Shown here: one piece after another, positions 4,211-58,323 of the stretch
Layout: the number at the start of each line of letters is the position of its first letter
Position numbering within the stretch: position 1 is the first letter of the stretch
Source of the DNA: Lichina pygmaea
Lineage: Eukaryota; Ascomycota; Lichinomycetes; Lichinales; Lichinaceae
Assembly: GCA_963422465.1 (NCBI GenBank)
Contig: OY730170.1
Location: 1,922,001-1,986,000, forward strand
DNA: 64,000 nt
Direction of reading: 5' to 3'
Made by a program: the position numbers and the translations under genes
Notes under the pieces: generated by a model
What the model was told of the DNA's origin: nothing
The model's database searches: none
What the model saw: only the letters and a program-made list of their open reading frames with translations

Positions 4211-4271
<61 letters not shown>

Positions 4272-4474: not shown

Positions 4475-4519
<45 letters not shown>

Positions 4520-6588: not shown

Positions 6589-6628
<40 letters not shown>

Positions 6629-27284: not shown

Positions 27285-28226
27285 GTCGACCACCTCCTCC
27301 AACCTCGTTAACCTCGTCTCCGGACCGATACAGGACACTTCTACTTCTACCTCTACCTCCTCCACTAGCACTTCTACTCGCTCGCAGCAGCTACTCATCG
27401 GCCTGCGGTCTGGGCCTCTCCACGATTTCTGGCTACTCGTAGGGATTTTTGCCAGGATACCCTCGGTGGCTCTTCAGTCGGGCTTTGATGGATTGTCGGA
27501 CTCTGGACAGGGTGCGCTTTCTTGACCTGCTTCTCTTCTGCCACTGCTGTGTACATGTATGCTCACACCAACGCTCTATGCTTGGTCGTTGTCTATACAT
27601 TCTACAAGAGTCGATGCTCCAACCCCTACTGTAGGAGGAAGAAACACATGTCCCATCGGACAGTCTTCAATCGGTAGCTGCAAAGTGCTGCTTGAACGTG
27701 ACGTCAATCGAGCCCTCTGTCACAGCAATGTCGAGAGGCGACTCATCTCGCATCGTGCCGCTGTAGAATGTCTGTTCACATTCAGACATACAGCTCTCGG
27801 TCCTTGCAGCTGGCTGTTCACTTTGCGCCCGTCGTGAGATGTCCAGATGATTTTTGGTGGGGCCTTACGCTGTGGTCAGCAAAAGACCACGACTTTTGAA
27901 AACGACTCTAGTCCGAGCGTGTATCGTGAGGTTAAAACCGCCGATGAGTGTATTCTTCATCCGCATATGCTCAGCCAAGTCGAAGCCCTGCGAAACCCTG
28001 CCTTGATGGGAACAGCCAAGGTCCCCAGTGACAGCATGGGGTGAAGATTCAGCGCTACGATATCATACCAGAACAATCTTTCCTCGCGGCATCTAGACGT
28101 ATCTTCGATCATCAACATTGCGTCGATGATTGAAGATGTGATTGCAATTTTACCAGCAGAGGATGTGCGTCTTTGAACCTCTGCTCTAGCATCTAGACCG
28201 AAAGGCCAGGTCATTGCGTCTTTGAG
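27285..28226. other. Gene-free interval at the left edge of the ELG1 block
   Basis: The first 150 bp after the pinin gene are pyrimidine-rich (ACTTCTACTTCTACCTC). The rest shows no coding signature, and I find no trace of the ELG1 N-terminal sequence that would be expected just upstream of 28227. The frame before ATG 28227 is open only back to a stop at 28194. Confidence 0.55.
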
Positions 28227-30565
28227 ATGAGCGCACTCGATTCTTCTATCCCGTCCAGAACGACACCCGCGAAGCCTGCCCTGGCCCATCATGCACTTCA
28301 GAGTCTTTACCGTCGTGTCGGAAATTCTACCAGTGCCTTCGATCAGGCATGCTGTCAAACTCAAGCATGGACATCGAAGTATGCGCCGACACGTGCCGAG
28401 GACTGTCTGCAGGAGGGCCAGGAAGCACTTGTCCTCCGGGATTGGCTGAGGTGTCTTGGCTTGGGTACCGAAGGTGCTGACCACACAGGATCTTGTGACG
28501 ATCTTACCAGTGGAGGCACCAGCAGACCTTCGAGCCAGCTGCACCCAAGAAAGAAGCGAAGGACCGAAGAGCGCCGTCTCGAGGATGACATGTCGGACTT
28601 TATCGTTCCTGATGATGATGACGACGGCGCTGATGACAGCGGCGGCAAGGACCAGTATGAGCTTATGGACCTCGACAAGCATAGCTGTCTCCCTCCCCGG
28701 GCCAGATCGCTCGTCAGGAAGGGCACATTCACGCCGCCCGGCCGGACGAGCATCAAGCGCTCAACGAACGGAATCCTCCTCAGCGGGCCTTGTGGATCTG
28801 GAAAGTCGGCTGCCGTCTACGCGGCTGCGAAAGAGCTCGGGTTCGAGGTGTTCGAAATGAACAGCGGGAGCCGTAGGAGTGGGAAGGATTTGCTGGAGCG
28901 GGTTGGCGACATGAGCATCAACCATCTCGTTCAGCGCTCGAAGGTCGATGGGCTTGACTCGCCACATGGCAAGGCGGAAGTGGCACAGGACAGCATGGCA
29001 GGGTTCATGCCGAAGTCGATCGGAGCATTCTTCGTGCGCGGGGGCGCCCAGGAGCAGACGCGGGCCCCCGGAAAACCATCGCTTGGCCCAGATCCCAACG
29101 GCAATGCATCTTTACCACACGGGGTAGCCGAGCGGTTGGAGAGGAAGAACTCTCTGATCCTGCTGGAGGAGGTTGACATCATCTTCGAGGAAGACAGACA
29201 GTTCTGGAGCACGGTGTCCACGCTACTTCTGCAATCGAAGAGACCCGTGGTGATGACCTGCAACGACGAGGGCCTAGTTCCCGTCGACAGCTTGTCGCTG
29301 CAGGCAATCCTACGCTTTCATGAGCCGCCGGTGTCGCTCGCGGCCGACTACCTCCAGCTCGTTGCGGCTGCAGAAGGACATCTCCTGGGTCGGGACGCTG
29401 TCGAGGCGCTCTATCTGTCCAAGGGTCGAGACCTTCGGGCCTCGATGACGGAGTTGGACTTTTGGTGCCAGATGGCCATCGGAGACCGCAAGAGTGGACT
29501 GGATTGGATGGACCACGACCTCCGCCACGTGGACGAGCGGCTTGATCGGTCGAACCCGCCACGCGTGGTGAGCAAAGATTCGTACTTGGCTGGCATGGGT
29601 TGGTCGAGCGGGGACAAGGCCGCCGAGGTCACGGGCGACGGGGACGCGCTGGAGGAGTCGCTGGTTGCGGATCTATGGAGCGACTGGGGAATCGATGCCG
29701 AGCATTGGTGCGGTTTCCCGGCTTCGAGAAGTTCGGATGGAGAGCCGATGGCATCTACGATGGAATCGCCTTCGGCAAGGCTGGCGGCAAACGAGGCGAT
29801 GGACCGCTTTTGTGAGAGCCTGAGTAGCGCTGATGTCTTTGCTTGCCACGGCGGCCGTGGCTACGAGCAGGTACGCCCTACCTGCGAGGCTCGCGCGTTT
29901 CCGACTGATCGAAGTAGACCAATCTCGACGCAGGCCAACCGGCCCCGTCGGACAAGACACGGCTGGATACCGTGCAAGGGTACTGGCTACTCGACACCCC
30001 GGACGCCGTGAGCCGCCAGGAATGCTCGACGCGGATGGCTCTCCAAAGCGCGCTTTCCTCCAAGCGGGCCCTCCAAGCTGCGGCGACACGCCTCGACATC
30101 TCCAGTCTCAACACGCGTACGCTGACCGAGGAGGACTTTGTCCGCCTCGTTCTCGATCGACGTGGCCGGCCGGTCGACGACACTGCATCCGCGCCCGGCT
30201 CCAGGCTCACGACGGCGTTGGATCCGATCTTTGAGCGTTCTGGCGGTTGTGCGGGTCTCTCGTCGACGCTGCGTGCTTCCGATCTCGATCGGCCGCTCCA
30301 GGTCCTCGTCGAGGACCTCGCTCCGTACGTTCGCGCCATCGTCCGCAGCGACGTGCGACTCGCCGAGGAACGGCGCCGGCTCGAACAGCAGCTGCTCACG
30401 CACGCCGAAGGCGCGCCGGGCAAACCGGCGCGTATGCGCACGACGAGAGCAAGCAGGTCGGCGGTCGACGGCGGCGATCGAGCCGCCATGCGGCGCGATC
30501 GATGGTTCGACGTGGATCTCGACGTCGAACTCATCCTTGGAACGGCTCCGGCATCCTGCGCATGA
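28227..30565 (+). CDS. ELG1: ELG1/ATAD5-type clamp unloader, C-terminal (ATPase) half
   Basis: Elg1 forms an RFC-like complex that removes PCNA from DNA. Two exons, 28227-29870 and 29918-30565, give 763 residues. The segment HHALQSLYRRVGNSTSAFDQ, WTSKYAPTRAEDCLQ and LRDWLRCLG precede the AAA+ core. The Walker A is GPCGSGKS (residues 190-197), the Walker B-like segment is LILLEEVDIIFEEDRQFW and sensor 1 is RPVVMTCNDEGLVP. The C terminus has RFCESLSSADV, the post-intron GYWLLDTPD and a basic end with RDRWFDVDLDVEL. The normal fungal N-terminal region (HPFF motif, MxHVRG segment) is missing. It appears instead at 46406-48039 on the same strand. The ATG at 28227 sits at the break and may or may not be used. 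Confidence 0.85.
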
Positions 30566-30654
30566 CGCCACTACGGACAGCAGCGGACGCTGTAGCTGTT
30601 TGTCAGGGTACTTTACGGGGTCGAGGAGTATGTATCTCTGAGGCTGGAGGAGTA

Positions 30655-30655
<1 letters not shown>

Positions 30656-30684
<29 letters not shown>
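30656..30684. repeat. (ATC)n microsatellite
   Basis: Nine or ten uninterrupted ATC units just after the ELG1 C-half stop. Confidence 0.9.
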
Positions 30685-30686
<2 letters not shown>

Positions 30687-31542
30687 TCCAATACGCATAC
30701 CCTTCTGTCCAAAGCTTCTGCTTTTGTCCTGCCAGCAGGCTGTCCATTCACAACATTCATTTCCCATTCCCCAGCCCAACTTCCGCGACACACGGGAATA
30801 CATACAACACCACTCAGCACCGTTGATTCCTCCGTACAGGAGTGAATGAGTAAAATTACAGGAGAACACGTCAAAGATGCAATTACCAGGTCCGTAGTAG
30901 TACCATCGTGGTACGTGATTTTTCAGGCAGAGGGGGGGGGGGGGGGGGCACTCTCGACGCACAGAAACATCCCGTCAATCGTCCATCTCTCTTGCAAGCG
31001 TCGTGAACAAGATTGTTGACAAGGTCATAGCCAGGTCGTAGACAGGCTGTGGACAGGTAGCAAGTCTCTTACTGTACTCCATCATGTCAGTCCTTGGAGT
31101 GAGCGGTCCCTCGGTTTCTTTAATCAATACCGTACCGTACAGTACTGTACCGATACTTACCGTCTGGCCCTTTGCATTGCCACTCGCGGTCAACTCAGTT
31201 CTGGTCACTATCCGTTCCGAATGCAAGTGCCTTTTCCCTTTTCTTTGACGTCAGTGCTCTCGGGTTTTTGTCTGGGTTGTGGCCGGTCCGTTTCTGGTTG
31301 CGGTACCGTACCGGTACGTACGTACTTGGTGTCGCTTCTTTGCTGATGGCTCGCTGTGGTATCAATCCTTGATCGGTGTGATCTGGTGGTTTTTTGATGC
31401 TCGCTATCGGGGCTTGGGGATCGTCATCTGTTGGTTGTTTGATGCAGTTGGCTCTTGATGCCTGCTGTCAGCTCTTGATACTCACTGTCTGTCGTTGATG
31501 CTCACTGTCTGTTTGTTCTGGATGCAGTTCTACGGGTACATG

Positions 31543-31577
31543 GGTGAGTGAGTGAGTGAGTGAGAGAGTGAGTGAGT
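31543..31577. repeat. (GAGT)n microsatellite
   Basis: Eight GAGT units with one GAGAGAGT interruption, in intergenic sequence. Confidence 0.9.
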
Positions 31578-32025
31578 GTACGGAAGTACTGGCTGAAGGC
31601 ATACGATACTGTACAGGCACAAAGCACATACAAGAGCTCACGAGCAGAACATTGGTACAGTGCGGCCACCTGCTGTAAATCTCCATTGCTGTTTTCTGGC
31701 TAATGACATATATTATCCAGTCACCTCACGGTCGGCCTTTGTTGTAACTTGGCACCTCCCTGGCAAACTGCCATTGTCTATCTCGGTGCAGAAAAAATCC
31801 GTAATAGTAAGCTGCCCTGGTTTGCAATAAAGTGTGTAAACAATGAATCGATCAACAAATAAATAAATCTCATTCGAACATCCATGTCCTATAATGCTTC
31901 TACCGCCTTGGTTCCCCGGGATTGGTGCACGAGCCTTCATCGACACCTGCTGCGGGCTCGAGTCGAATCCAAGATGACTCGTGACAGGCAAGATGAGAGG
32001 CCTGGACCGCTCTCCGTCTCGTCTC

Positions 32026-32676
32026 TCACCCATTCACCAGTCGCTCCAGTCGGCTGCGAGGTTGGGTCGGTTCGTCGGCGAACCGAATCCGCGCCGGCTC
32101 TTGCACGACGCTTCGACCGCGACCTACATCGTCCTCTTCTTCGTCGCTGTCGTTGCCCGCCGAGGCCATGCCCAGCGCCGCCTCGCGGCGTCGTCGCTCG
32201 GCGGCGGTCTCGGGCTGGCTTCCAGAGTGCTTGCGCGTCGAAGGCCCCTCGTCGTCCGGTTGCAGGGCCCGCTTCGGCGGCACTCGCTCGGTGCCGTCGT
32301 CGTCGCTGTCGTCGTCCGCGGCCTCCAGGGCCTGCTCTCGTCGCCCCTGCGCCGCCGTGCTTCCACCGAGTCGAGCCAATTCGTACCCCACCTGGCGCGG
32401 CAGTACGTCCAGGTCGACCGGCTCGGTCTGGTCCGCGTCGGTGCGCAGGGCGCTCCCTGGACGTGAGTCGGGCCCGACGGTCGACTGCCAGCTGCCCTCC
32501 TTGTCCGAATCGACGCTGGCGGCGCCTGGAAGGTACTTGGCCGCAGCCCACTTGCCGCCCGGGGGCGCGTCGCTCTTGTTGCCCGCCGCCGTCCGGGCCT
32601 TGGGATCGACATTCTGGATCTGCTGGATGAAGTCCGCCTTGCTCATGCGTCTCCCTCCCGACACGAATCGAAGACG

Positions 32677-32735
<59 letters not shown>

Positions 32736-35022
32736 TGTCATCGTCGTCGTTGTCATCGTCGTCGTCGTCGCCGGCCGCCGCAGACGCGACCGGTTGATCC
32801 GCCTCACGCCGGCCGAGCCCCATCCACGTGCCCATACGGTGCAACGGCTGCCGATCCCCTCGGACCGGCGCTGCGGCGCCGTCATCACCGTCCGTCGTCG
32901 CCGCCTTCGCCGCCTTCGCCTTTGGGCTGGGAATGTCAAACTTCCTCACGACTTCGCCGTCCTCGTCCTCGACGATGATGGTTTTGCCAAACTGGTAGGC
33001 CTGCGCCGGCCCGCGTTTGACCTCGTGCCCCCGAGGCTGCGCCGCGCTCTTACCGTGCCGGCCCCAGTCCCAGTCGCGCAGCCGCTGCACCAGATCGCGT
33101 CGGGCAGCGGGCGGCGCGACGTTCTCGCCGACCTCTCCGAGCACGTCTCTGCCCTCCTGGGCCGCTGTCCGACGATCGGCCCTCTCGCCTCCTTCTCCCC
33201 CTCCTTGCCCCCTTTCTTCCTGGACGTCATCTTCCTTGTCCTCGACGGTCAAGGTTCTTCCCTCTTCGGACACCTGCACGTCCGCGCCCGAGCTCTTCTC
33301 GGCGATCCCGTCGACTGTACCGTCCGATGGGCTGGTCTGACCGGACCGGTCGGCGGCCTCGTTGTCGAGTCGGCTCTGGGGCACGATGGCCGACTGGCTG
33401 ATCGGCCCGCCGACACCCATGTGCATCTCCCGTCGGCGGCTCCTCGGCGGCGGCGGCCGCCGCAGGCTGGACGATCGGCTGCCCTGGCGGCTCGGATTGT
33501 CCTCCTCGCGCTGGCGACGCAGGAAGGTGCCCGGCAGCCCCGTCGGCGGCAGCGCGTCGGCCGGGAAGGTCGGCTCCCGCTCGAGCGAGACGCCGCTGTC
33601 GAGGTCGGTCTTGCGCGACTGCGACTGGATCCGAGGCAGGCGGTTCATCCACGACGGGCCCTCCTCGTTCGCCTGCGTGTACGACATGGTGATGGTCAGG
33701 GTGTTGATGTGCTTGCCGAGGGCGAAGACGGCGATGGACGAGCCGTGCACGATCATGGACGAGATGACGAGGAAGGTAACGATGGGCCAGATCAGCACGA
33801 CGAGGGTGCGGTTCTCGGCGCCCTCGGGCGGGAGCTCGGCCGAGGGCGTGGTGGTCCCGGTCGAAAGCTCGGCGCGGGCCAGGATGGCGACGAAGATGGC
33901 GCCGACGCCGATGGGGCCAAAGTGGCCGGCGAAGAGGGCCTCGCGCCAGGTCTTGACGTCCGGGATGACGGGCTTGAGGAGGAGCATGATGGGGATGCGG
34001 CGGAAGAGGACGACGAAGACGGCGATGACGACCAGGCGCCAGGGCGTCAGGCCCATGTCCGGGAGGCTGAAGTCGCTCCAGGGCACGATGGCGCCGAAGT
34101 AGACAAAGTAGGCCAGGTTGAGCAGCAGGTCGATGACGTCCGAGACGTGCGACTCCTCGGTGCGCTCGCGAAACCAGCCGTCGTTGGAGAAGCCGACGCC
34201 GGCGGCGAAGCCGACCAGCAGGTCGTCCAGGCCGAGAAGGCTGCCGGAGCCGGCGCAGAAGAGGGCCAGGACGAAGTAGAAGGCCAGGAAGCTCTCGCGG
34301 TCGACGAGATCGTGCTTCTCGGCCAGCTTGATGGCCTGGCGGGCGCCGTAGCCGACGAGGACGCCGAAGATGGCGCCGAAGACGCACTCGTAGAGGACGA
34401 TGAGGCCGGCCCAGTGCCAGAAGACCTGCCACGCGTGCGGGCGGTACCTGATCAGGTAGAGGGCGAGGTAGATGAAGGGGAAGGCCATGCCGTCGTTGCA
34501 GCCGGACTCGGCCGAGAGCAGATCTCGAAGGTGGCGCGGCACCCTCTTGGCGAACTTGCCCTTGCCGACCACGGACGAGGCCAGGACCGGGTCGGTCGCG
34601 GTGACGCAGGCGGCGACGCAGAGCGAGTCGAGCCACGACAGCGGCTCGACCATCCACCAGACGAACAGGCTCGTCGCCAGCCAGCCGTAGACCATGACGG
34701 GCACGAGCAGCAGCACGACCGACTTCCAGTGGCGCTCCATGTAGGCCTTGGGCAGCTCGACCCCGACGGCGAAGCACTGCACGACCAGGACGATGCGGGA
34801 GAACTCGAGCGTGATCTGGTCGGAGTTACCCCACGATCTCGGCCTGAGCAGGTCGGCGGCATTGGGGCCGAAGATCACTCCGCAGACGGCGGCGACGGTA
34901 GCCTCTCCGATGTAGAGACGCTGCTTGACGAACAGCGAGACCAGCATGAAGAGGCTGGTGAAGCCGCCCAGGATGAGATAGGCCAGGTGTGGCCGATTGA
35001 TGGACAGGTGATCCCAGGCCAT
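32026..35022 (-). CDS. NHA1: Plasma-membrane Na+(K+)/H+ antiporter
   Basis: Exports alkali cations in exchange for protons across the plasma membrane. Single-exon frame of 998 residues. The N-terminal 430 or so residues form a multi-pass membrane domain beginning MAWDHLSINRPHLAYLILGG, with VCGVIFGPNAADLL, TDPVLASSVVGKGKFAKRVP (residues 143-162) and the ion-binding pair in AESGCNDGMAFPFIYLALY (Asn-Asp at 176-177). Family landmarks LLGLDDLLVGFAAGVGFSND and FGPIGVGAIFVAI follow. The C-terminal 550 residues are a hydrophilic, probably cytosolic tail with an Asp run encoded by GAC (complement of 32677-32772). It ends close to a conserved ARIRFADEP segment. The long tail is typical of Nha1/Cnh1 and is the regulatory part. 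Confidence 0.94.
32677..32772 (-). repeat. GAC trinucleotide repeat (poly-Asp)
   Basis: About 30 nearly consecutive GAC/GAT codons in the antiporter tail, read as GTC/GTT on the plus strand. The first two thirds are pure GAC, and the remainder has spaced AAC codons, giving Asp-Asp-Asn-type repeats. Confidence 0.9.
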
Positions 35023-35923
35023 CTTGACGGCCTCATCGCTCGGGACGCGAGAAGGACGATATCTTCACTTCAGGGGGGGAGGGGAGGGGAGGGGAGGAGG
35101 TCGAGTCTACCTGAGATGGAAGAGGGAACCAGCGATTGGCTCCTTTATATTGTCCCTACGACTACCAGGGATATGGCAGAAGAAGGAGAACGATAGGGGG
35201 TGAGTACTGCGTGACAGGATGCAAGCCATGTCGAAAGAGTGCTTTTGACCCTGTCGTGCCTGTGTGGTCGAAGTTTAAGGCTCGAAGTTGTATTTATTTG
35301 GCCCGGGCGAGGTGTGGGTGGGGGAAAAGGTGGGGCAAAAAGGGGGGCCCAGCTCTTATCATAAGTACTGGTTAAAAGTCATGAGTGCCCCAAACAAATA
35401 TTCCAGCTCGCTTCGAATGGTCTAGCCCATTGAAGCCCGTTGAGCTCTTTTGTCACACACTCGATTTTGGGCCGTCCAAGAATCATTGTATATAGGAAGT
35501 ACTTGCAGCTGCTTACTCATCGGCGGCTCGATTCTCATGTGCAACTCGCAGAGCCTCACCACGTGTCCGCTAGATCCACTTTCGGTATGATGAGCGTGGT
35601 CATTGATGAGTCAGCCACCCTCCTCTTTAACGTGAGGGCGCACGTTCTCTCAGGGAGCCTCATGGTGTCTTTGGAGGGGCTGTCGTGAAGATTCCTTCTA
35701 ACAACGTCCTGACACTAGACTTTTGACATGGCCAAACTTGTGGGCTCATGCTGATAAAAGTCTTGATAGGTTGAGATTCATATTAGTCAGCAGGTTCTCA
35801 GCAGGCGCTACATCGGCCGCTCGCCCCTCCGTGTTCTCTCCCCTCCTATCGATAGGGAACATACGTACGTACGTACATACAGCTGGCTCTGCCGGTCGTC
35901 TTCGATCCGCCATCAAAGCCACC
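35023..35923. promoter_or_regulatory. Divergent upstream region, antiporter and small membrane protein
   Basis: About 900 bp between the two starts. A G-rich stretch (GGGGAGGGGAGGGGAGGAGG, 35075-35100) lies just upstream of the antiporter start, and a GTACGTACGTACATAC cluster at 35862-35878 is 45 bp before the small gene. No other gene is seen. Confidence 0.4.
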
Positions 35924-36335
35924 ATGACATCTGCCACCTACATCCTGACCGTCGTCATCACCGCCGTGGCGGCTTCGGTTGCGACGGCCTGGATGACGGG
36001 CATGCTGGTGCCTTTGATCATATACATCCGTACCTACTCTACCGAGGGCCAGAAGGCGGCGGAGGAGAAGGCGCTCGATGCCATGGGGGAAAGCAAGGTT
36101 TCGTACGGCGTCAAAGGTAGGCTCTCGCGGCTCGTTCATGCCCGCTCAGCCGTCCAATGTTCGGGTCGACTTGGTAAACGCGCCGCTTCGGACAGACAGC
36201 ATGAAGCAAACAACGATCACCGACAACAAAGAGGTCAACGACGTGCAAGGTGGGCTGGGCGAAACGGTGGGAGGGCAGTTCGGCAGCGATGGCATTGCCG
36301 GTGGCCTGGGCAAAGGCCTGAGCAAGGCACTCTGA
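35924..36335 (+). CDS. Small single-span membrane protein, glycine-rich tail
   Basis: Two exons, 35924-36116 and 36196-36335, joined by a 79-nt GT-AG intron, give 110 residues. Context at the ATG is ACCATGA. The first 35 residues are hydrophobic (TYILTVVITAVAASVATAWM, then TGMLVPLIIYI), a signal anchor or one to two membrane spans. A charged linker (STEGQKAAEEKALDAMG) follows, then a Gly-rich tail with ETVGGQFGSDGIAGGLGKGL. Phase and reading frame agree across the splice. I do not recognise a function. Small glycine-rich tails of this type occur in several uncharacterised fungal proteins. Confidence 0.55.
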
Positions 36336-37102
36336 TCAGGGAAGCTTTGTCAGCGGACTTGGCCTTGATTAGGTAAGAACCAGCCGTGCGGGTGACCTCG
36401 GCCAGTCGAGCCACGTGACTTCCAAGACTGATCCACAGTCAAGCATGTCGTATGGTGGAAAGGACTACAGAGAGATATCAGAGGCCACAGCAGCCTCCAA
36501 CAGCATTTCAATGAGGCCGTCATTGGTGGATGAAACCCATTGACCTTGGGTCGACGTCACGTGACAGGACATCTCGCATCTCGGCACAATCGGCCCGATC
36601 CATGCCGTGGCCCGGGCGTAGCCCAGGGGCAGGAATCAAGCACACGATCAGAAGAAGGAGCATAGCCATGCGAGGCCCCCTGTACGGACACCAATCCGAT
36701 CCTCCCTGACTCCATGGGATGAGTTCCTAGTAGACGGCCAGAGCCTCTACGTTACCTACCAATCACTCCAATCAATCGCGCAGGACTGTCGGAATTGTCA
36801 GAATTGTGCGTGGGACAAGGATGGATGCGGAATAACCTTTTTCCGCCCGGTAGGCCAGTCGGGCCGAAAATAGGCAGGTCCCGCACGGCCAAAAATCTCC
36901 GTTCGGTGACGACGCCCAAACGAACGCTCTCGCGCAGGCCTGCTCTCGTCTTCTCAGGGTCAGATTGACGGGCCTGGTTACCGCCATCACTTGTGCCTGA
37001 GCATGCCACCTCGCTGACCTTGGCCAACCCCCCCCCCCCCCTCCGCTTCTCGCTTTGCAGCCTGCTTCATCGTCGGGCGACGTTTCGTTTGCGGTTCGGA
37101 CA
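36336..37102. other. Intergenic, no gene seen
   Basis: 3' flank of the small protein and upstream region of LAG1. It contains CCACGTGACT/GTCACGTG-type E-box sequences (about 36412 and 36556) and a C run at 37028-37041 some 60 bp before the LAG1 start. Confidence 0.4.
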
Positions 37103-38069
37103 ATGCAGCGGTACCGCGCCGCGTCGGGCGCGCTCGGCGTCGAGATTCGAGGAGACTCGGCCACGCCGGCCACGTCGGCGATCGACGGTCCCGTCGCGCT
37201 CGTGCGAGATGGCGTAGGTGCCATCTCCGATGGGGGTGCCTGATGCTCACGGCTGACGGGTACCCATAGCCGTCGGCAGAGTTGGCTAAAGTACGTCGGC
37301 GGCCGGTGTCGAAGCGTCGACGCAAGGCGAGGAGCCTCTTCCGCCGATGGCGCAGCCTCTCGGTCCGACACACCTGGATCACTCCGCTCGTCGGCATCCT
37401 GCTCGTCTTGGCTCTGTACTCGTACAATCCGACCCCGTCCAGTTTCGTGTACCCGGCCATCTTCCTGTCCTACCCGCTCGACCACAATCCGTTCGCGACC
37501 GGCCAGTACGGCAAGGGGCCGCTGGACCTCGCCTTCGTCGGCTTCTACGTCCTCGCGCTGTCCTTCGCGCGGGAGTTCTTGATGCAGGTCGTGCTCCGAC
37601 CCCTGGCCGTTCGCGCCGGCATCACGGGCAAGTCGAAGCAGGCGCGCTTCCTGGAGCAGTCCTACACCGCCGTCTACTTCGCCGTCTTCGGTCCGCTGGG
37701 CCTCTACATCATGAGCCGGACTCCGATCTGGTACTTCCGCACCGGCGCCTTCTTCGAGGGCTTCCCGCACCGGACCCTGGACGGGCCCTTCAAGGCCTAC
37801 TACCTGCTGCAGGCCGCGTACTGGGCCCAGCAGGCCATCGTGCTGGTGCTCCAGCTCGAGAAACCGCGAAAGGACTTCAAGGAGCTTGTCGGTCACCACA
37901 TCATCACGCTGACCCTAATCGGGCTGAGCTACCGCTTCCATTTCACGTCCATGGGCTTGGCCGTCTACGTGACGCACGACGTCAGCGACTTCTTCCTCGC
38001 CGTAAGTCCGACGACGCCCTCGGCCCCTAGACCCCGACCTTGACCCCGGACATGTCTTTCCCCGCGATG

Positions 38070-38107
<38 letters not shown>

Positions 38108-38920
38108 GGACTTTTGGATTGGCTGACCTCTTGCTCTCCGCGCCTTGTCGCTTATTACCAAAAAATATAGATGTCGAAGAGCCTGAACTACGTCGACTCG
38201 CCGATCGTGACGCCATGGTTCAGCGTCTTCATCTGCGTGTGGATCTACATGCGGCACTACCTCAACCTGCACATCCTCTGGGCCACCCTGACCGAGTTCC
38301 GCACCATCGGGCCCTACGAGCTCAACTGGGAGACGCAGCAGTACAAGTGCCTGCTCAGCCAGCTCATCGCCTTCTCGCTGCTCGCCAGCCTGCAGGCCGT
38401 CAATCTGTTTTGGCTCTTCCTCATCGTGCGCGTCGCCAAGAGGATCGTCTTCAACAACATCGTCGCCGACGAGCGGAGCGAGGTCGAGGACAATGACGAG
38501 GACGATCCCGCCGACGACGACACCGCTGCTGCAGCCGCCGCCGCCGCCGCCGCTCCGGCCCTCCAGCAGTTGCCCGCCCCCTTGACGTCGGATCGAGAAG
38601 TCACCAGCGGCCTCGCCGACATCAAGCACGGGTCGAACGACCCGACCCCGCCGGCGCCCGCTCAAGCAGACTCGGCTTCCGTCGAATCCGGAATGTCGAC
38701 CACGACTGCGACTGCGACTGGGAGTTCGACTCCGACCATGAGTTCATCGGCGACAACCACCGCCGACCAAGGAAGCTCCACCGCCGGCCAAGAAATCTCG
38801 CCTCCCGACCAACAACAACTCCAGCCCGTCCTCCGACCTCGCCCGGCGAGAGTACCAGCAGCAGCAGCTTCTTCTTCTTCTCCTTCTTCTTCGACCGACC
38901 GTCACGCCGCCGCCCGATAA
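37103..38920 (+). CDS. LAG1: Ceramide synthase (TLC domain)
   Basis: N-acylates sphingoid bases to ceramide in the endoplasmic reticulum. Three exons, 37103-37213, 37270-38001 and 38171-38920, give 530 residues. MQRYRAASGALGVEIRG starts the short exon 1, and exon 2 opens with a basic stretch (KVRRRPVSKRRRK). The TLC domain holds the Lag1 motif across the exon 2-3 junction: HHIITLTLIGLSYRFHF, then YVTHDVSDFFLA and MSKSLNYVD, with the paired His and the two Asp in place. About seven hydrophobic segments are visible (for example ITPLVGILLVLALYSY). Intron 2 is 169 nt and contains a GTC repeat. The C-terminal 170 residues are acidic, then Ser/Thr/Ala-rich and probably cytosolic. Some fungi have two paralogues (LAG1/LAC1 or BarA/LagA), and I cannot say which one this is. 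Confidence 0.92.
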
Positions 38921-39068
38921 AACTCAAGAATTGTTGAGCCTGTAAACTACTTTTTCTTGAATTCTCAATCTCTTTTCTTTCTTTCTTTCTTTCTTTCTTT
39001 TCTTTGTGAATGTAGCGAAATCAATCGTTCTTTTTCTCTCCTTTTTCTTGTTGTTTTTTTACAGGAAA

Positions 39069-39085
39069 GGGGGGGGGGGGGGGGG
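39069..39085. repeat. G homopolymer, 17 nt
   Basis: Uninterrupted G run in the 3' flank of LAG1, followed by a (CTT)n stretch. Confidence 0.95.
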
Positions 39086-39418
39086 AAGCTTCATCTTCTT
39101 CTTCTTCTTCTCCTTGATATTCGTTGTTTAGAGTGTACCTCCCCCGCCTCACCCCCCTTCCTCCCTCCTTCCTCCCCCCTCCTTTCCCCCTTTCTAAACA
39201 AAGCATACTCAATTCATCCTTCTTCATTCTTTTGGATTGATTCACACTCATCCTTCTGCTGGCGGAGGGGGGGACCGGACAGATAGATGATAGAGAACCT
39301 ACTGTAAATATTGCATGCATAGAGTTTTTGAATCGAAAAGAAGTAGAAATTGTGTTCAAGTTGTGAGGGAAACTTCCGTGAGAAGGATATATTGGGGTGT
39401 GGGCTGGTGATAGGGGAA

Positions 39419-39438
39419 GGGGGGGGGGGGGGGGGGGG
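39419..39438. repeat. G homopolymer, 20 nt
   Basis: Second long G run within 350 bp, with a C run of 11 at 39481-39491 that could pair with it. Confidence 0.95.
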
Positions 39439-39632
39439 TTTTACGAGAAGTTTTGCTGTGAATATTGGTGATTGGATATACCCCCCCCCCGACTGTCATC
39501 TCTCTCATCTCCTCTTTACGATCTTTCTCCGTTTCCCCTCAGGATGCTTCCCCCTACCCCCCAGGACGCTTCCGCCCAGTATAAACCCCCCCCTCCCCCC
39601 CAACAAACGATCTACCCCTTACAATCTCTCCC

Positions 39633-41694
39633 TCATTCCGACGAGCCTTGGGCGGCCACGAGACGATCCCTCAAGAGCGCCTTGATGTTCCCAGGGATCC
39701 TGCGAGGCGGGGCCGATGGCGGGCCGTCGTCGCTGGTGAGGACACAGACGAGGTACTTCAGGTTCGCGAGGGTCTGGCGGAGATCGAGCACCTTGAGCCC
39801 CTGGCGGCTCGTGAGGAACTCGATGTTCTTGTTCAGCAGGAAGACGGCGTAGTCGAACCGATACTGCACGCTGTTCTTGGGGTAGAGCGGGAAGGTGCGT
39901 TGGCCCTGCACCATCATCATCATCGAGATGTCGTCGCGGATGGACGACGTCGACAGCCGCGGCTCGGCCGGGTACGGCAGTGGCACCGACAGGTAGCACG
40001 ACAGGAGATGCACGACGTGACAGACGTAGCCGATCGCGGCCGCCGTCGTCGCTGGATCTTCCCCCTTCGAATCGACGAGTAAGCCCTGCAGCGCAACACC
40101 GCGGATGGTGAACAGCAACGGCTTGTGAGGCACCTGCACATCGTCAGCCTCGCCCGACTTCCCCCACTGTCTCATTAAGCCACGTCGGGTGGTAGATTAC
40201 CGGCTCCACGGGATATATCCAGCTCAGGTCCTCCGTGATTCGCCTACGCTGGGCCCGTATGCCTCGCCGGCTCTTCTGCAGTTGGAGCTCGCAGGACCTG
40301 AGCTTCACCCCGGCATTCACGAGGTCCTCCTGCGCTCCCTTCTGCATTCGCCTTCCTTGGCTCATGCTCTCCCGTCTCGTCTTCAGGCTCTCGACAAGGC
40401 TCGCTCGGGCATTGATCCTGCCGCTTAGCTGCCTCTTCTCCGCTGCCACATAACGCCGAAGCGACGCCAACGGCTCCAGTGGCGAGGAAACCAGCTTCTT
40501 GGCGCGGGAGCCGCCGGAGTTTGTAGTCCCGTAGACGCTGCCATATCTTTCCTCCGACTGCTTGCCGACGCTACGGCTCAGGACCGAGTTGATCTGAGCC
40601 GCAAGCTTCTCCTGCGTCCCTACTGCGTCCTGAATGCACTCATCGAGAGACGACAGCCGCATGAGAGCATCGTACGACGATGTCGGCCTTGCTTCGTTGC
40701 CGTTTGCTGCTCTTGGCGAGCTCGACGGCGACGGCGCACGACTTCGTTGAGGCGTTTGATGGCCAATGTTGCTATAGACTCCATCGGAGAGATGCAGCAA
40801 CAAGCAATTCGACGACAGCAGAGCAGGCTGATCATCGGTCTGAACACCTGCGATGAGCGAAACCGCGTAACGTCTGTCTAGATGGTTCATACCGACTTGC
40901 CTACGAACTGTAGGGAAGGCAGATGCAACGGCTCGTCGACCAACATCTCGTACTCTGCCATGGTCTCGGACTTGGCCCACACCTTGATGACGACGCTTTC
41001 GAGGCGAGAAACCAGGGGCTCGGCGGTGGCCATATCAAAAAACCGGTAGGTTGGATTCTACCGCGCGACTGGTTACAATGCGACGACAACCAGAAGCGGT
41101 GTCAGGGGTACTTACCATCGCCAGGGCAACCACCTCGCTCACGTAGATAGGCTCTGCCAAGGATCGATGAGCACAAAGGCACGGTAGTAGGTCTGGCAGA
41201 TGGCTCTCACCGTCGACTCCATCGCGGTGTAGAGAAAACCACGTATCCGCCATCCGGCTCGTCGTCGCCTGCTCCAGCCTCCGCTGGCGCACTTGCGGGC
41301 TCTTGCCCACGCAATTGAGGGTGCTCCTTCTCCTTCGAGCTTGATCCAAGCCAGGCCTCTGAGGCGGTGTCTGACCCGGGCCATTTTGTTCCGACTTATC
41401 TATCGAGCCCCGGGCGTCATGTCGGTCTTGGTGTTGCGCCTCGCGACGCCGCTCCTTCTGGCCCTGCTCTCTCCTTTTCCTGGAAAGGACCGACAGGTCG
41501 AGGTTGCGTATCGAGATGCCATGAAGGTGCCGTAGTCTGCGATTCTAGCATCAGGTCAGAACATCTCCGCTAGTTGGAATCCAGATATCACACACGTAAG
41601 GGAGCAACCGAGAGCGACCAAGGCTGCGATTCACTGGTGCTGCCACCTCCGTGGGGCTGTTTTCGGCCGAGCCATTTGTGCTCACAGGAGACAT
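39633..41694 (-). CDS. VPS38: Vps38/UVRAG-type subunit of the PI3-kinase complex
   Basis: Likely endosomal subunit of the class III phosphatidylinositol 3-kinase complex (with Vps34, Vps15 and Vps30/Atg6). Six exons, 41694-41594, 41536-41211, 41153-41116, 41057-40893, 40839-40168 and 40133-39633, give about 600 residues. Landmarks: LRHLHGISIRNLDLSVL; SRMADTWFSLHRDG; EPIYVSEVVALAMNPTYRFF; YEMLVDEPLHLPSLQFVGKS; then PTSSYDALMRLSSLDECIQD followed by a long coiled coil (residues 300-420). ITEDLSWIYPVEPVIYHPTW and the C-terminal block AAAIGYVCHVVHLLSCYLSV, PLPYPAEPRLSTSSIRDDIS and FLLNKNIEFLTSRQGLKVLD complete it. The last intron is only 34 nt, or 46 nt if the next AG is used. Atg14 is the alternative, but the C-terminal block fits Vps38/UVRAG better. 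Confidence 0.85.
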
Positions 41695-42065
41695 TTAAGA
41701 CCGACTTGAGCAGGTTGAGGACCGCTCACAGTGCTGTCATCGTTAGTCTTGACCTTCGCGCTTCGGGGCATTCGTTTCTGCGAACGGCAGTACCCATACT
41801 GTACGTACTTACCCGATGTCATACTCTAGCGCGGTGACTATACTTAGTTTTAAGCCGCATCTCAACACTGGCATGACAAGTGCCGACTGGCTAGAAAGCG
41901 GCTAGATGTCTCATAACTTACAGCCTATGCGGCTCAAAATGCGGCTCAACAAAGTCTCTCGCTGATGCTAGTGCCGGTGCGTGGTTGTCGACGACCGGTC
42001 CGTCGCTCGCTCGTCCAAGCCGCACCTTCCTCACCACTCAACCTGGCAAGAGCCACCGACTCAGG
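41695..42065. promoter_or_regulatory. Divergent promoter VPS38-MHR1
   Basis: 371 bp between the start codons. An imperfect direct repeat of AGCCGCATCTCAACACTGGC-like and GCGGCTCAAAATGCGGCTCA sequence is visible at 41850-41947. No named factor site. Confidence 0.35.
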
Positions 42066-42796
42066 ATGAACAAGGCCAAGGCAGCCGCGCACGGCCAGAA
42101 TATCTTTGTTTACTGCAACATCCGGACGAACCAGGTGTTGTATTCGCTGTCCAGGACACTGAAGGTCGGATGCCATCCCCAAGAATCGCAGGGTCAAGCG
42201 AGCTGCTGACCCCTAGCCGTCGTGTCGACCAGAACAACGCCAGCCTCCGGCAATTGACCTTCGTTGGCAAGAAGAGCGTGCCCGCCAGCCTGCGCAAGGA
42301 CATCTGGCAGCCCATGGCGACGATCTCGTTCCCGTACGGCCCGCAAGGCTTGCATGCCTTCCGAAAACTGCGCGAGTACCGCAAGATGCACGAGCTCGCC
42401 ATACCGATCGAAGACATCAGGGACAAGACGAAGACAGATCCGAACGCCTTGATGGAACGCAAGAAGCGGCCCCGCCTGCTCATGGACCAGAAGGCCAATA
42501 GCGTCGCCGACATCGCGGCCGTGCTGGCGAAGCAGGCCGAAGCCGGTACAGCGTGGGCGAGGACGACGGACTCGACGACACCAGGAGACCCGTCTCAGAG
42601 CCGCCCGGCGGCGCCATCGACCGTATCGGATGGCGAGGAGGGGTCGTCGGGGGTCACGGGCGTGACCATCTCGTGGAGGAACATATTCGATGCCGAGTTC
42701 GCCGAAAGTTGGCCGTCCGAAGTTGTGCACAGTGGGCTTGACTACACGAGACATACGATAGACAATCCGGCTCGAGAAGAAGAAGAAACACAATGA
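42066..42796 (+). CDS. MHR1: Mitochondrial ribosomal protein mL67 (Mhr1)
   Basis: Large-subunit mitoribosomal protein of fungi, also described in yeast as a mitochondrial recombination factor. Two exons, 42066-42164 and 42233-42796, joined by a 68-nt intron, give 220 residues. MNKAKAAAHGQNIFVYCNIR and TNQVLYSLSRTLK are followed after the splice by NNASLRQLTFVGKKSVPASL, then RKDIWQPMATISFPYGPQGL, HAFRKLREYRKMHEL, KKRPRLLMDQKANSVADIAA and, near the end, ISWRNIFDAEFAESWPSEVV. The middle Gly/Ser-rich insert (residues 150-185) is likely disordered. It converges with UTP8, with only 85 bp between the stops. Confidence 0.93.
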
Positions 42797-42881
42797 GATG
42801 TCACACGTGTGTTACATCGAGTCTATCGTGGGAAGCATGGTGTGCTGTCCGAGCGATAGCATTGCTAGGGCGCGTCGTAGT

Positions 42882-45800
42882 CTAGATTGTGATTCTCTCC
42901 ATCGTGTACGCGCCTATCTTCTTGTTCTCCAGCAGCTGCAAGTCTCTCTTGGACCGCTCGACGACTCTGCCCTTGGAGAGGATTTTTGTCGACGAAGTTT
43001 CATCCTCGGGTCGCGAGCCGAGGGGTAACGCCTTCGGGCCGGGGGCCTCCGCGTGCAGCACCACGATCTGCCCACCTTGCCTAGGCCTCGAGCGGTCGTC
43101 ACCGGAGGAGTTTCCGGACTTCCCCGACTTCCCGTGCTGTAGCAGCTCCTTCAGCAGCGCCTCCATGCTTGTCGCCTCCTGTACTACCTCCAGAGCGGCC
43201 GAGACCTCAAGCTGCAGCACCGCGATGAGGCTGCTCGGGTCGACGAGTCCGCCGAAGCCTGAGCGGGCGTGGATCCAGCCTGCCGCGCCGATGCTGTCCA
43301 AGGCGCAGCCCAGGAGGCTGCTGATGAAATGAACATCACGGCATTCACGGCCATTGTTGTCCTTGAAGATCCGGTCCTTGTCCAGCTGCCAGGAAGTCCA
43401 TCCACCTACGATCAGGTTCCTCCTCAGCAGCTGGACGACGAGGGTGAGCTCGGTTCTAGTCAACACCTGGCCGAAAGCCCGTGTGATCTGCGGGTAGGGG
43501 AAAGACCGCAGCCTGTTCAGGGCCAGCGCGAGGGCCTTCTCGAGAAACGCCCTTGTAGCGGGCCTCCTCTCCGCGGACGGCACGTTTCCCTCCACTCCAG
43601 TGTCATGCACTTGACCGGTTCCGGGGAGTTTTCCGCCGGCGTCGGTCGGTTTCGGTCCGGTTCCGGGGAGGGCTCGGAGGTCGAGGGCCGCGGGGTCGCT
43701 GAGTGCTACCATCAGAGGTTTTGCGGCGCTTGTAACTTCCTCGGCGGTAGTGAAGACTGGACCCTCGAAGGCCCACAGCAGGAGATCCACGCTTGGACCC
43801 AAATCCAGAATCGCTCTGACGAGCGTCTCACCGCGAACGACGCCAGAAAAAGGTTCTGCGGCTGAGAGGCCCTGAAGCGCGAGCTCGATGTTTCGCAGGG
43901 TCAAGACTCCAGAGAGCATCAGCCACCGGAATACGTTTGGTGGGCACAAGTTGATCAGTAACCTCGGCTCGTTCGATTGCTCAGCCCTGGCTTCTCCGCT
44001 GCTCTTCGCCGCATCTTCTTGCTGGTGGCATGAAAAGAGTTTGCCCATGATGAAGAGCGACTTGGAGTGAGCGAGGTTGCGAAAGCCGACGGTCTTCAGC
44101 GTGCCATCGGCGTGTTGGGGCCATTTCCAAGTCGGCATTGGTGCCTGCAATTGGAATTCCTTTGCTGGGGGTTTGGAAGCACCGGCTGCACATTTGTGAG
44201 GGTGTGTGCCGTTCGTTTTCGCCACCCCATTCGGCTCGTTGCTCTGGCCGTGCAACCGGGCCTTTTCCCGTTCTTTCTTCGCTATCCTCCACTGCTGATA
44301 TTGCTCCTCGTTGCGGCCGATACCAAGTTCGCCGGCCACCACCCTTTCAAAGTTTTCGACGTGTTGCCGCCGGGTGTATCGGTTGAGCAGCTCGCTGTTC
44401 TGCTTCCAGGACGGATCGGGCACGCTTCCAAGAGACAAGAGCGAGCCCAAACTTGACGGAATCTTACCCTCGATAGACGGCGAGGACGTTTCCTGGGCGG
44501 CGGACGAGATACCTTGACCAAGAGCGTCGAGCAACCTTCCACCGCCGGCACGCCTTTTCCGACTTCGTTCATTGCCGGAAAACGTAATGTTGAAACCGAC
44601 GAGCTGACCATCGATACGGCCGACGACAAGGCCTAGCCGGGGATGGAAGCCTAAGAGTTCCATGGCAGCCGGCTGTAAGCAGGCATCATCTACTGTGCGC
44701 TTGCGCTTCGTGCCAGACGACGGTCTAAGAGCTGACAAGTTGATTGGTGCGCTCAGTCGAATTGTGCGGTAGCAGACGTCATAGATAGCCAGGGACGACC
44801 GAGTTGTCGTCAATGTGAGCGCTTGTGAGAGTCTGAGAAACGAGTGCGTTTTTCCACCAGGTATGTCCAGCTCGGACACGAGCTTTGGATAAGTCCCCGA
44901 AAGATCGTAGCTGGCCAAGGAACTGCCGCGCAGCAGTTGCAGGCTGCCAGAGCCGACATCGAGCGAGATTTTGTTGATAACTGTCTGGTCCGCCGCCGCC
45001 GATGGCAGATGAAACTGGCATAGGGGCCTGATGGGGGCGTGGCCGCTGGGAATCCCCTGCCGCTTTTCGCGGCCAACAGCCAGCACATGCAACACGCAAT
45101 CACACGCCTGAGCCGCGGTGCTTGGACGACTCCTGCTGAGAAGAATGAGTAGGCTCACGGTCTCGGCGGCCGTGTTGGCTGCCGTGGAGGCATCAAGCAT
45201 TTGAGAGTCGAGAAGTGCAAGAGCGTCACCTCTACCTCGAAGAAGCCCTTCACGGCTGGTGCTCACGTCTGCGTTCATGATGAACTCGATGCTGGAATCT
45301 GAGGCCGACGACGTAGACTCTATTCCACGAAGGACGGTCTGCTTTGAGCATCTCCACCGCTCTTCCTTCAGATCGCCGCTGAGACATCGGACCTCGCCAT
45401 CGCGATGGACAAGGAGGAGGTCGGTCGGTATTTCTGGTTCAGTCATCGAACGCCGAGGCAAGGCATCCAGGAAGACGACATCATGCCGAGCGCCTTTGAT
45501 TTCCCGGGTGAAAACGGACCCGCTGGTCTTGGAATAAGGCGAGCTCAGTCCACACGCCGACTGACTTGCGCTAACGTCCCAAAAGCAGAAAATGCGGGGC
45601 CGTGGATCAGTAGTGGAGGCGTAAGTGAGACGCTGCACCGCGAGCGTAGCTTCGTGCCTTTGTCTGACCGAGCAAGGCGGGCAGGTGAAGGTGACATTGG
45701 GAGGCAGAGCATAGGAGGATGTCAACTTGGAGTGTTCCACCTGCGCGGTTCTTAGCTGTCTCCGTTCCTACAAATCATGAACGACCCGAAGAAGGAAGGA

Positions 45801-46026
45801 AAGAACGATGCGCCCCTTCGGAAGTACAGATTCCCAAGACTCATACGTTGTAGATATTCACACCCTCCCCATCAATGCCGATTGCCAGCTCCGAGCGCTT
45901 CCTCTTCCTTGATTCTCTTGCCAAGCCCCACACATCGCCAACGAGATACTGGCCCTTGGTCGTTTCAAGTGGCCGGGGAAGAGTTGCCAGCAGATGGGGA
46001 TCTTGTAAAGAGATAGTAGACGCCAT
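42882..46026 (-). CDS. UTP8: U3 snoRNP-associated protein Utp8
   Basis: t-UTP subcomplex protein, needed for early pre-rRNA transcription and processing in the nucleolus; the yeast protein also takes part in tRNA export. Two exons, 46026-45847 and 45740-42882, give 1012 residues. Exon 1 encodes MASTISLQDPHLLATLPRPL to AIGIDGEGVNIYN, and the acceptor at 45741 makes it continue VEHSKLTSSYALPPNVTFTC, as in the family. Other acceptors at 45755 and 45768 would add 9-14 residues. The N-terminal half is beta-rich (propeller-like), and the C-terminal part is helical, closing with the family-like GAYTMERITI. Low sequence conservation of Utp8 limits certainty. It is divergent from the ELG1 N-terminal half. 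Confidence 0.75.
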
Positions 46027-46405
46027 ATCAGCACCTTCCGCGCTGTATCATGCGCTTCTGCTTCGACTAGATTTGAATAAATGACCTCAGCCATCGTCCG
46101 CAAAAAATGATATCTGGTAAATTTTGGTGCGTGCACTCGGAAGGCGGGCGGGCCGGAGATTTGACGCTAGGCTTGAAATAGGCAGTTAATCCGAGAGTCT
46201 CCGATTGGTCAAGTCTAATCGCGTGCGATTAAACGCGCTTCCACGTGATATCTAATTTTCTCGCGTCCATAAGGCAGACGTCACGTCTCACCACGCGGTA
46301 TATCACCTGTCGGTCAGGTTCATCGGCGCTGAGTGGAGGGTGACTCAGGCATCTCAACTGAGTTCAAGCACGATCACTGATCCCAAAGTGGTGGCCAGCC
46401 ACAAG
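46027..46405. promoter_or_regulatory. Divergent promoter UTP8 / ELG1 N-half
   Basis: 379 bp between the starts. It contains CCACGTGATAT (about 46240), GACGTCACGT (about 46270; half of a CRE-like palindrome) and GATTAAACGC, plausible factor sites. A full promoter here is consistent with this being the true 5' end of ELG1. Confidence 0.45.
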
Positions 46406-48039
46406 ATGGACATTGAGCCTAGAAGACAGCCTGTCCATCCCTTTTTTGCTAGACAGACTTGTGAGTGGCCAGAGCTGGCCATGACTATCCCCCAGCTAGA
46501 AAGTGACTGTGGTTGCCTTGCTGATATAATGGCTGTTCTGTCAAAGATCCAAGCCCCGTCGCGACACCCCCAAAAGCTTGTTTGGTGGCCCCAGCAAACG
46601 TCTCCGATGGACCGCGGCGTACAGATGAAGTCCCCTCTCCAACGGAGCCGGGTATCGTCTCGAACACAGGTCAGTGGAGAAAGTCCAAGCTGATCTTACT
46701 TGTATATTGCTGCTACCGGAGCGACTCTCCTGGCTACGGAGTACCTCTTTTACCATTTGGTCTTGCAAAGGCTAACATGTGTCATGTACCAGTCGACACT
46801 GATGGCAATCCAAACGTGAATGGGACACTAGACACCGACAACGACTTGAAGACAGACTCACGATCTGTCCTGAACGCAATGACGTCAAACTCTACAGGCA
46901 GAAAGCGACGCAAGATCAGCCCCAAAGGTACAGATTCAGCGCCTCGGGTCAAGTCATCGTCTTCGTTGGTACAGGTCGTTTTGAACAACGCCCAGGCCAA
47001 GCAGGAGGCCGACGAGTCAGGGTCGCTTGACGCTTCGCTAGCGACGACGTTGCCCGCTACTACTGTATCGTCACTCGAGGCTCTCGACGCTCAAGCTCGA
47101 CCTCATCCAGGCACAGTGGGACTCAACTCAGCCAGCTCACGAACCGAACCAGGAGTCACGGTTCTTCCCATCTCAGGCTCTGAAGGCGAGCAAAAAGACA
47201 GGCACGAAATTGCAACAGCGGCTGGAATCCTAGTCCGGATAACGAAAGTCAGACCCCAGATGCTCCTCAAGATCCGGTATAACGGCCGCTCCGGCTCCAG
47301 GGACGGGTTTTCTGGAAGGGACAGCACAAGTGCGCCGAGCACGGCTGGAACGGAACGTCTTCCTCCGAAAGATTCGGCACCAGCGAAGATGTCGGTTCAT
47401 CCGTTTTTTCTCGGAAAGCCTAGCCAGTCTCTCAAGTCGGGTTCGGCCAGGCCAGGCGGGAATTGCAAAGCCGACATTGACGTGACGGTCAATCCCGACA
47501 ATATCTCGGAGTCTAATCATGATCAGCCTAAAAGACACATCTTTCACGAGTCGACCTCCGCTGCCGGAGGCCCAGATCAGCCAAAGTCCACTTGTACGCC
47601 CTTCAAAGCGAGCGAAAACGCATTTCGATCTATCTCCGGCGCTCGGACAACCCGGCAGCTGGGTGCGACTTCACCGCCGTGGCCGCCTCGGGAAATGTTT
47701 CACGTGCGTGGCATCTCGATGGAAGGGCTTTCACCTGACGGAGGTCGATGCCCACCGAGAGGACATCAAGGGCTACCACTGAGTAAGAAGAAGCAGAAAC
47801 ATAGCCCTGCCACTGTATCGAAAGATGAGAACCTGCTACGGCAGATTCAAGGACGTCTGGTGCGCGGTCTGGGAGGAAGAACCATATCCGACACTTTGCC
47901 CAGCTACGGCGCGGATGAGTCCGCGCTGGATCCGGTACCAAAGGAGCTTCGTCTACCAGAGCGTCTCGTGCTGAGAAGTAGTGACTTGCAGCGTCTGGTG
48001 CTAGGTCGGATGTCCGAGCCGCACGTCGCCGACCGATAA
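46406..48039 (+). CDS. ELG1: ELG1/ATAD5-type protein, N-terminal half (separated)
   Basis: Three exons, 46406-46460, 46595-46669 and 46793-48039, with phases closing to 458 residues, then TAA. It starts MDIEPRRQPVHPFFARQTSN and has a second KMSVHPFFLGKPSQSLK near residue 270. From memory of fungal Elg1 N termini, the HPFF motif, the ARTTRQLGATSPPWPPREMF segment running into HVRGISMEG, the basic KKKQKHS followed by ENLLRQIQGRLVRG, and PERLVLRSSDLQRLVLGR are family landmarks. The frame ends (MSEPHVADR, stop) just where the missing part, MSALDSS...HHALQSLYRR, would begin. That part lies 18 kb upstream. The introns (134 and 123 nt) are longer than elsewhere in the window. Family assignment is from memory and needs an alignment. 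Confidence 0.65.
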
Positions 48040-57820: not shown

Positions 57821-58323
57821 AGTGTCAGCACCAGAACCACGCTGTTCAAGGACCATCACTTTTGGCAAAGACAGCAATTTGTCATATGTTCTGGAAAACA
57901 GCCGACATCCTGTCCCGACCCACCCAAACCTTAAGGTGAAAACCCATCACCTTTGAGAATCACACGTGATTGTCAAAAGTTGTGATCTTGGGATCCATGA
58001 TCTGTTTCTTCAACAACCAGCAACCCAGCCACAACCAGAGAGAGAGAGTCTGAGAATAAGAGGAATGGTTAGAGTCTGACTGACTCTGGAGCTAGCAGAG
58101 TCCTTGACTCAAGGAAAGTCTAGATAGGGGGTCTGGTCACTAGTCTAGGCAAATACTCCTAGCTTTATCAAGAGCTTAGTTGGAATAAGCTGCCCAGGAA
58201 AGTCTAGTCTTGGAGTCTGGTCCCAGGACTAGATTATTACTGCTGGGAAACCAGGTGACTCCTCTCTCTCTGGCACTACTTCACAGACTGGAAACAGTTG
58301 ACCTGTGCCAAGCAAGCTCCACC

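Follow-up and report, generated by a model that had tools for sequence, protein, structure and literature searches.

The window analysed here is a stretch of 64,000 nucleotides from the ascomycete Lichina pygmaea (bases 1,922,001-1,986,000 of contig C2, which is 5.46 Mb long). It holds two genes that bear on the clamp unloader named Elg1 in yeast and ATAD5 in human. The first, at 28227-30565, encodes the AAA+ core of an Elg1-type protein and is called the core gene below; the second, at 46406-48039, encodes a protein that may be the N-terminal region that this core lacks. Both lie on the + strand, the core gene coming first, with a gap of 15.8 kb between them and a total span of 19.8 kb; an earlier note on this DNA had given the same strand and order. 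That note described them as the two halves of one ELG1 gene. The assembly totals 32.47 Mb and consists of seven contigs of 3.2-5.8 Mb and an eighth of 48 kb; the window has a GC content of 55%, zero N and zero matches in an Rfam scan.

The core gene and where it begins

The core gene runs from an ATG at 28227 to a stop codon at 30565 on the + strand and encodes 763 amino acids in two exons, separated by one intron of 47 nucleotides. This intron was picked by eye, from its GT donor, CTGAT and TAG, among 38 GT/GC-AG pairs compatible with an open frame. The features of the gene are the following.

28227-29870, + strand: exon 1, with locking loop 1 and the AAA+ domain (open reading frame [ORF] and splice search; phmmer matches to ATAD5 and Elg1)
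28233-28337, + strand: core residues 3-37, aligned to residues 185-216 of yeast Elg1 locking loop 1 (pairwise alignment)
28575-28625, + strand: RLEDDMSDFIVPDDDDD, set against yeast Elg1 residues 294-310, inside the Elg1-only loop 290-319 (low-scoring alignment piece)
28785-28808, + strand: Walker A, GPCGSGKS (alignments to ATAD5 and Elg1)
29154-29195, + strand: Walker B, LILLEEVDIIFEED (alignments to ATAD5 and Elg1)
29871-29917, + strand: the 47-nucleotide intron, GTACGC...CTGAT...TAG, joining exon 1 to an open frame of 215 codons
29918-30565, + strand: exon 2, expected to encode the collar domain (open reading frame)

When the core protein was compared with the PDB by phmmer, human ATAD5 came first (E 1.7e-25), followed by yeast Elg1 (1e-11), RFC1 (1.5e-9) and CTF18 (3.5e-4), with no RAD17 chain at E<=0.1. 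Walker A (GPCGSGKS) and Walker B (LILLEEVDIIF) are both intact. In addition, the text SDFIVPD of the core aligns to ANFIVPD of yeast Elg1, with FIVPD identical, in a low-scoring piece (-3.9 bits) seen in one of two alignments. The yeast loop that carries NFIVPD, residues 290-319, is described as conserved across Elg1 orthologues, the other clamp-loader subunits lacking it (PMC9863317). Because the best similarity is to Elg1/ATAD5 over RFC1 and CTF18, and because of the FIVPD text, the gene belongs with Elg1: judged from its sequence, it certainly encodes a genuine Elg1/ATAD5 clamp unloader, and the earlier note was right to call it an ELG1-type AAA+ ATPase. Pfam finds the AAA family, with Rad17 and others below their cut-offs. 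Exon 2 has no match in the PDB at E<=10 and none in Pfam at E<=1, and the first 100 residues of the core match nothing in the PDB at E<=10. Against viral and bacterial/archaeal collections the core gave 2 and 8 pattern-matching stretches, respectively, and zero relatives. A fold model of exon 1, built without relatives, reached a pLDDT (predicted local distance difference test) of 36 and was not used.

The gene seems to have no other copy. With exon 1 translated on through the intron (594 amino acids) as query, the core matches itself alone in the genome at E<=0.001, and an RFC1-type domain on contig C6 is a separate locus. The earlier note had asked whether an intact ELG1 exists in the rest of the genome; none was found in the searches made.

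The earlier note had the protein begin a few dozen residues before a segment that runs to WTSKYAP. In the model used here, 47 residues precede the tryptophan of this motif, W48, whose yeast equivalent is residue 241. In yeast, locking loop 1 spans Arg184-Thr240, ahead of the AAA+ domain (PMC10906927). The yeast and human sequences used for this region come from PDB entries (8thb for yeast), and the decoy segments from other stop-to-stop ORFs of the window, which are mostly non-genes. Core residues 3-37 align to yeast residues 185-216 with a score of 40, reached by none of 1021 decoys and, in two runs, by 0 and 2 of 1000 shuffles. When the alignment is extended to core residue 80, the score rises to 46 (0/1000 shuffles, 1/532 decoys). 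The start of the core gene thus coincides with the start of locking loop 1, and the ORF lacks the equivalent of yeast residues 1-183. That yeast segment carries a PIP-like stretch, that is, one resembling a PCNA-interacting peptide (N55, S57), and SUMO-interacting motifs (SIMs; I28, I93 and I121/122) (PMC9863317). A break point between the third and fourth regions of locking loop 1 was also considered and rejected, the actual yeast letters placing the start of the loop within the core gene.

These results change the description of the locus as two halves. An N-terminal region is indeed absent from the core ORF. The core gene, however, corresponds to the unloading core and not to half an enzyme, because it contains the AAA+ domain and everything from locking loop 1 up to it; the collar part expected after it has no sequence match.

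The second gene as candidate N-terminus

The second gene is open on the + strand as three exons with two introns and encodes 474 amino acids, among them the text VHPFF twice, which agrees with the three-exon protein with HPFF motifs of the earlier note. Of 1008 models that stay open, the one used ranks first by a simple splice score. Its features are the following.

46406-46460, + strand: exon 1, beginning MDIEPRRQPVHPFFARQ (splice model)
46424-46447, + strand: RQPVHPFF, PIP-like, with V and FF in register and R replacing Q
46461-46546, + strand: first intron, GTGAGT...AAG (branch site read by eye)
46547-46669, + strand: exon 2 (splice model; top of six frames)
46670-46792, + strand: second intron, GTCAGT...CAG (branch site read by eye)
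46793-48039, + strand: exon 3, to the stop codon TAA (splice model; coding score)
46897-46914, + strand: GRKRRK, a basic stretch resembling a nuclear localization signal
47161-47184, + strand: VLPISGSE, resembling a SIM
47386-47409, + strand: KMSVHPFF, a second PIP-like motif
47680-47712, + strand: WPPREMFHVRG, a possible counterpart of ATAD5 QRVVHVQQ (residues 868-875), a lead that the alignments did not recover

The frame of this gene looks like a genuine coding ORF. Exon 3 stays open for 414 codons, which has a chance of about 2e-7 given the base composition. Coding potential was measured with a periodic score after training on both core exons and six other ORFs of the window, eight segments in all. 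By this measure the frame of the gene outranks the other five in exon 2 (-2.6) and, within exon 3, in the first half (-3.2), the second half (-1.3) and the last 102 nucleotides (1.0); in exon 1, whose 54 nucleotides are too short to weigh, it does not rank first. As references, the best of six frames scores -7.6 in the stretch 27285-28226 ahead of the core gene and -14.1 in a pseudogene downstream of the second gene. The 260 bp after the second-gene stop give -3.6 in their best frame and -10.9 or less in the other five. No second copy was found: with exon 3 and the four preceding intron codons as query, exon 3 matches itself alone in the genome at E<=10.

Besides its two VHPFF motifs, the protein carries PPWPPREMFHVRG and ERLVLRSSDLQRLVLGR. 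Two occurrences of HPFF in 474 amino acids were seen in none of 5000 shuffles, and some repeated 5-mer in 714 of 5000. The resemblance of FHVRG to the human VHVQQ is without significance. HPFF and HVRG text probably stands before the core in filamentous-fungal Elg1, in line with the earlier note, by which the second piece normally precedes the first. The literature searched contained no paper pairing HPFF with Elg1, and Elg1 was absent among the matches listed for Neurospora, Pezizomycotina or Fusarium graminearum.

Similarity searches did not connect this protein to any family. At E<=1, Pfam assigns no family to the whole 474-residue model. Exon 3 finds no clamp loader in the PDB at E<=10, its best match being an unrelated bacterial protein (E 0.97 and 0.17). 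For the comparisons with Elg1 N-termini, the references were human ATAD5 and yeast Elg1. Shuffled sequences scored as high as the second protein in 623 of 1000 cases against human ATAD5 809-939 and in 251 of 1000 against yeast Elg1 27-183. Within locking loop 1, the corresponding counts were 966 for human regions 1-3, 316 for human region 4 and 284 for yeast 184-216. The tail of the protein came closer: its last 110 residues against yeast 184-216 were equalled by 59/1000 shuffles, and its last 100 against yeast 184-240 by 42/1000 shuffles and 17/409 decoys. Both values are borderline, and we take neither as a match. The human and yeast N-termini, compared with each other as a control, were equalled by 926 of 1000 shuffles. 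The non-match of the second gene therefore says little, because the human-yeast control fails equally.

Could the second gene be unrelated to ELG1, the core gene being a naturally short, core-only Elg1 that was never split at this locus? The core gene begins where locking loop 1 begins, and no alignment of the second gene to Elg1 is significant, which is what such a situation would produce. Set against this are the PIP-like motifs, the SIM-like motif and the basic stretch, which are of the types expected of an Elg1 N-terminus although PIP and SIM motifs are short, and the HPFF and HVRG text that probably stands before the core in filamentous-fungal Elg1. On balance we regard an unrelated second gene as unlikely. 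Given its position, the type of its motifs, its coding signature and the text probably preceding the core in filamentous-fungal Elg1, the second gene is plausibly the missing N-terminus.

Junctions and neighbouring genes

The sequences around the two genes bear on how they came to be separate. The features concerned are the following.

13349-15127, + strand: thiamine-pyrophosphate enzyme (Pfam)
18163-19746, + strand: UbiA prenyltransferase (Pfam)
26220-27281, + strand: pinin-type protein (Pfam)
27285-28226: stretch from the pinin-type gene to the core gene, in which no second copy and no second-gene remnant was found
32029-35064, - strand: NHA1-type antiporter (Pfam)
37270-38917, + strand: LAG1-type protein with a TLC domain (Pfam)
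48300-49059, + strand: 5'-truncated dynamin-like pseudogene with 6 in-frame stops in 228 codons (label read from the sequence)

The thiamine-pyrophosphate enzyme is presumably of the acetolactate synthase kind. Between the two pieces, where the earlier note had counted six other genes, Pfam recognises the NHA1-type antiporter and a LAG1-type ceramide synthase; three further ORFs tested there have no Pfam family.

Could the pieces be contiguous in the actual genome and have been separated in the assembly? A misassembly would require three wrong joins, and a repeat was found at none of them. Moreover, neither piece was found elsewhere in the genome, seven of the eight contigs are of 3.2-5.8 Mb (the other being of 48 kb), and the window is without N. 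Searching the junction regions with blastn (E<=0.1) gave no mutual match and, elsewhere, just 21-base matches; a 36-base inverted match lies inside the end of the core gene. Since neither repeats nor leftovers were found at the junctions, we consider a misassembly very improbable. Leftovers of a tandem duplication were also sought and rejected, as tblastn beside the opposite piece gave nothing better than E 5. The earlier note had pointed to a shared Met-Ser at the two breaks. This amounts to four matching bases (GATG) at edges that were freely chosen, and it is no evidence of a former junction.

The dynamin-like pseudogene begins at 48300 at the latest, about 260 bp or less past the second-gene stop. 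Its positions 48336-49058 share 66% DNA identity with part of a 640-codon stop-to-stop ORF on contig C3 (3580569-3582491). With this pseudogene adjoining, the sequence 3' of the second gene does not stem from ELG1, which is what one would expect where a rearrangement ends. The same neighbourhood could be read as the trace of a recent disruption, with ELG1 broken by a rearrangement and at least one of its pieces now decaying: the order is permuted, the second gene ends in few codons (MSEPHVADR) with the foreign pseudogene within about 260 bp, and its coding score is modest. Yet neither ORF is interrupted and their introns look canonical, whereas 6 stops have accumulated in the 228 codons of the adjoining dynamin-like piece. 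Should one event have both split ELG1 and truncated the dynamin-like gene, the split would be old and both open ORFs would have outlived it; the pseudogene could, however, predate the split. We consider a recent disruption improbable.

The window holds further elements. An ATC triplet run (30657-30684) and a G run (30932-30948) follow soon after the core-gene stop. Two long ORFs have no Pfam family at E<=0.001, one of 1347 codons at 3460-7500 (+ strand), mostly in DNA of about 70% GC, and one of 961 codons at 42885-45767 (- strand). Sequence of non-LTR (long terminal repeat) retrotransposons in both orientations occupies 54752-62477, in a lower-GC block (38-47%): the - strand carries endonuclease-reverse transcriptase and RVT_1 domains at 54.7-57.3 kb, and the + strand carries RVT_1 at 60.7-62.5 kb.

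A probable fission of ELG1

Among the three explanations offered by the earlier note, namely fission, recent disruption and misassembly, a true gene fission fits best, and we think it probable that ELG1 was split here into two genes in permuted order. A local rearrangement, perhaps an excision followed by reinsertion or several inversions, would have cut the ancestral ELG1 just ahead of locking loop 1. Both pieces would have stayed on one strand, with their order swapped, as two genes. The gene at 28.2 kb would then give an Elg1 core (locking loop 1, AAA+ domain and C-terminal part), which should assemble with Rfc2-5 and unload PCNA. The one at 46.4 kb would give a separate N-terminal regulatory protein with PCNA-, SUMO- and partner-binding motifs. 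This reading takes the second gene to be the former Elg1 N-terminus and supposes that both proteins are made. Once freed, the N-terminal protein could act in trans, or serve functions for which a covalent tie to the motor is unnecessary. It could also join the assembly of Rfc2-5 or PCNA as a sixth subunit, forming an Elg1 of two proteins in trans, a more specific scheme that we hold as doubtful.

Could the core act alone? Deleting residues 1-215 of yeast Elg1 leaves unloading in vitro unaffected (PMC6546911), and the core described here retains about 30 residues more than that deletion. Point mutants of the yeast PIP and SIMs show no sensitivity to methyl methanesulfonate (MMS), and in the SIM mutant chromatin-bound PCNA is up 1.7-fold (PMC9863317). 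In two-hybrid assays it is the N-terminus of yeast Elg1, not its C-terminal domain, that binds Stn1 and Cdc13 (PMC10396338), which speaks for functions separable from the core. We infer that the core alone may unload PCNA.

A number of observations speak against parts of this picture. Compared with human residues 876-939, the start of the core gives no signal (81/1021 decoys score as high), and human and yeast compared with each other in the locking-loop region are likewise without signal (187/701). In coding score, another of the six frames surpasses that of the first 47 core codons (-4.1 against -5.0), even though these codons align significantly to yeast, and the second gene matches neither the human nor the yeast reference significantly. 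As for function, the activity of the same yeast deletion has been termed residual, and Rfc subcomplexes at elevated concentration can unload PCNA (both PMC10906927). In human ATAD5, unloading requires residues 812-864 (PMC9180478); should the second gene hold the fungal equivalent of this segment, the core by itself might be impaired.

The known unloaders show what is shared and what differs. S. cerevisiae Elg1 (PDB 8thb; PMC10906927) has the same AAA+ domain, Walker B, FIVPD loop and locking loop 1 before the AAA+ domain. Unlike the ORF described here, which starts at about yeast residue 184, it carries in the same chain 183 further N-terminal residues with the PIP-like and SUMO-interacting motifs. 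Human ATAD5 (PDB 8ui7 and 8uii; PMC11563871) is the best PDB match of the core, with WTEKYQP for WTSKYAP, but its 1844 residues include a long N-terminal region, and its version of locking loop 1 is longer, with a helix hairpin of which no counterpart was found in the core.

As a class, fission is already known, because gene fusion and fission are well documented in fungi, with an inventory of 1,680 elementary events in 12 species (PMC2557144). As in the inventoried fissions, one ancestral gene would have given two genes; in the present case the gene encodes an AAA+ subunit of replication and the pieces lie swapped, about 16 kb apart. No report of a split ELG1 was found in the literature searched, which covered few subscription papers.

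In yeast, Elg1 combines in one chain a regulatory N-terminus, with its SUMO, PCNA and telomere CST partners, and an unloading core. A fungus with a core-only gene cut at the start of locking loop 1 would be a natural separation-of-function experiment. It raises two questions: do the N-terminal functions depend on a physical link to the motor, and is the start of the loop the true functional boundary? If Elg1 is indeed made as two proteins in this organism, its SUMO and telomere-partner functions would be uncoupled from clamp unloading at the level of the gene.

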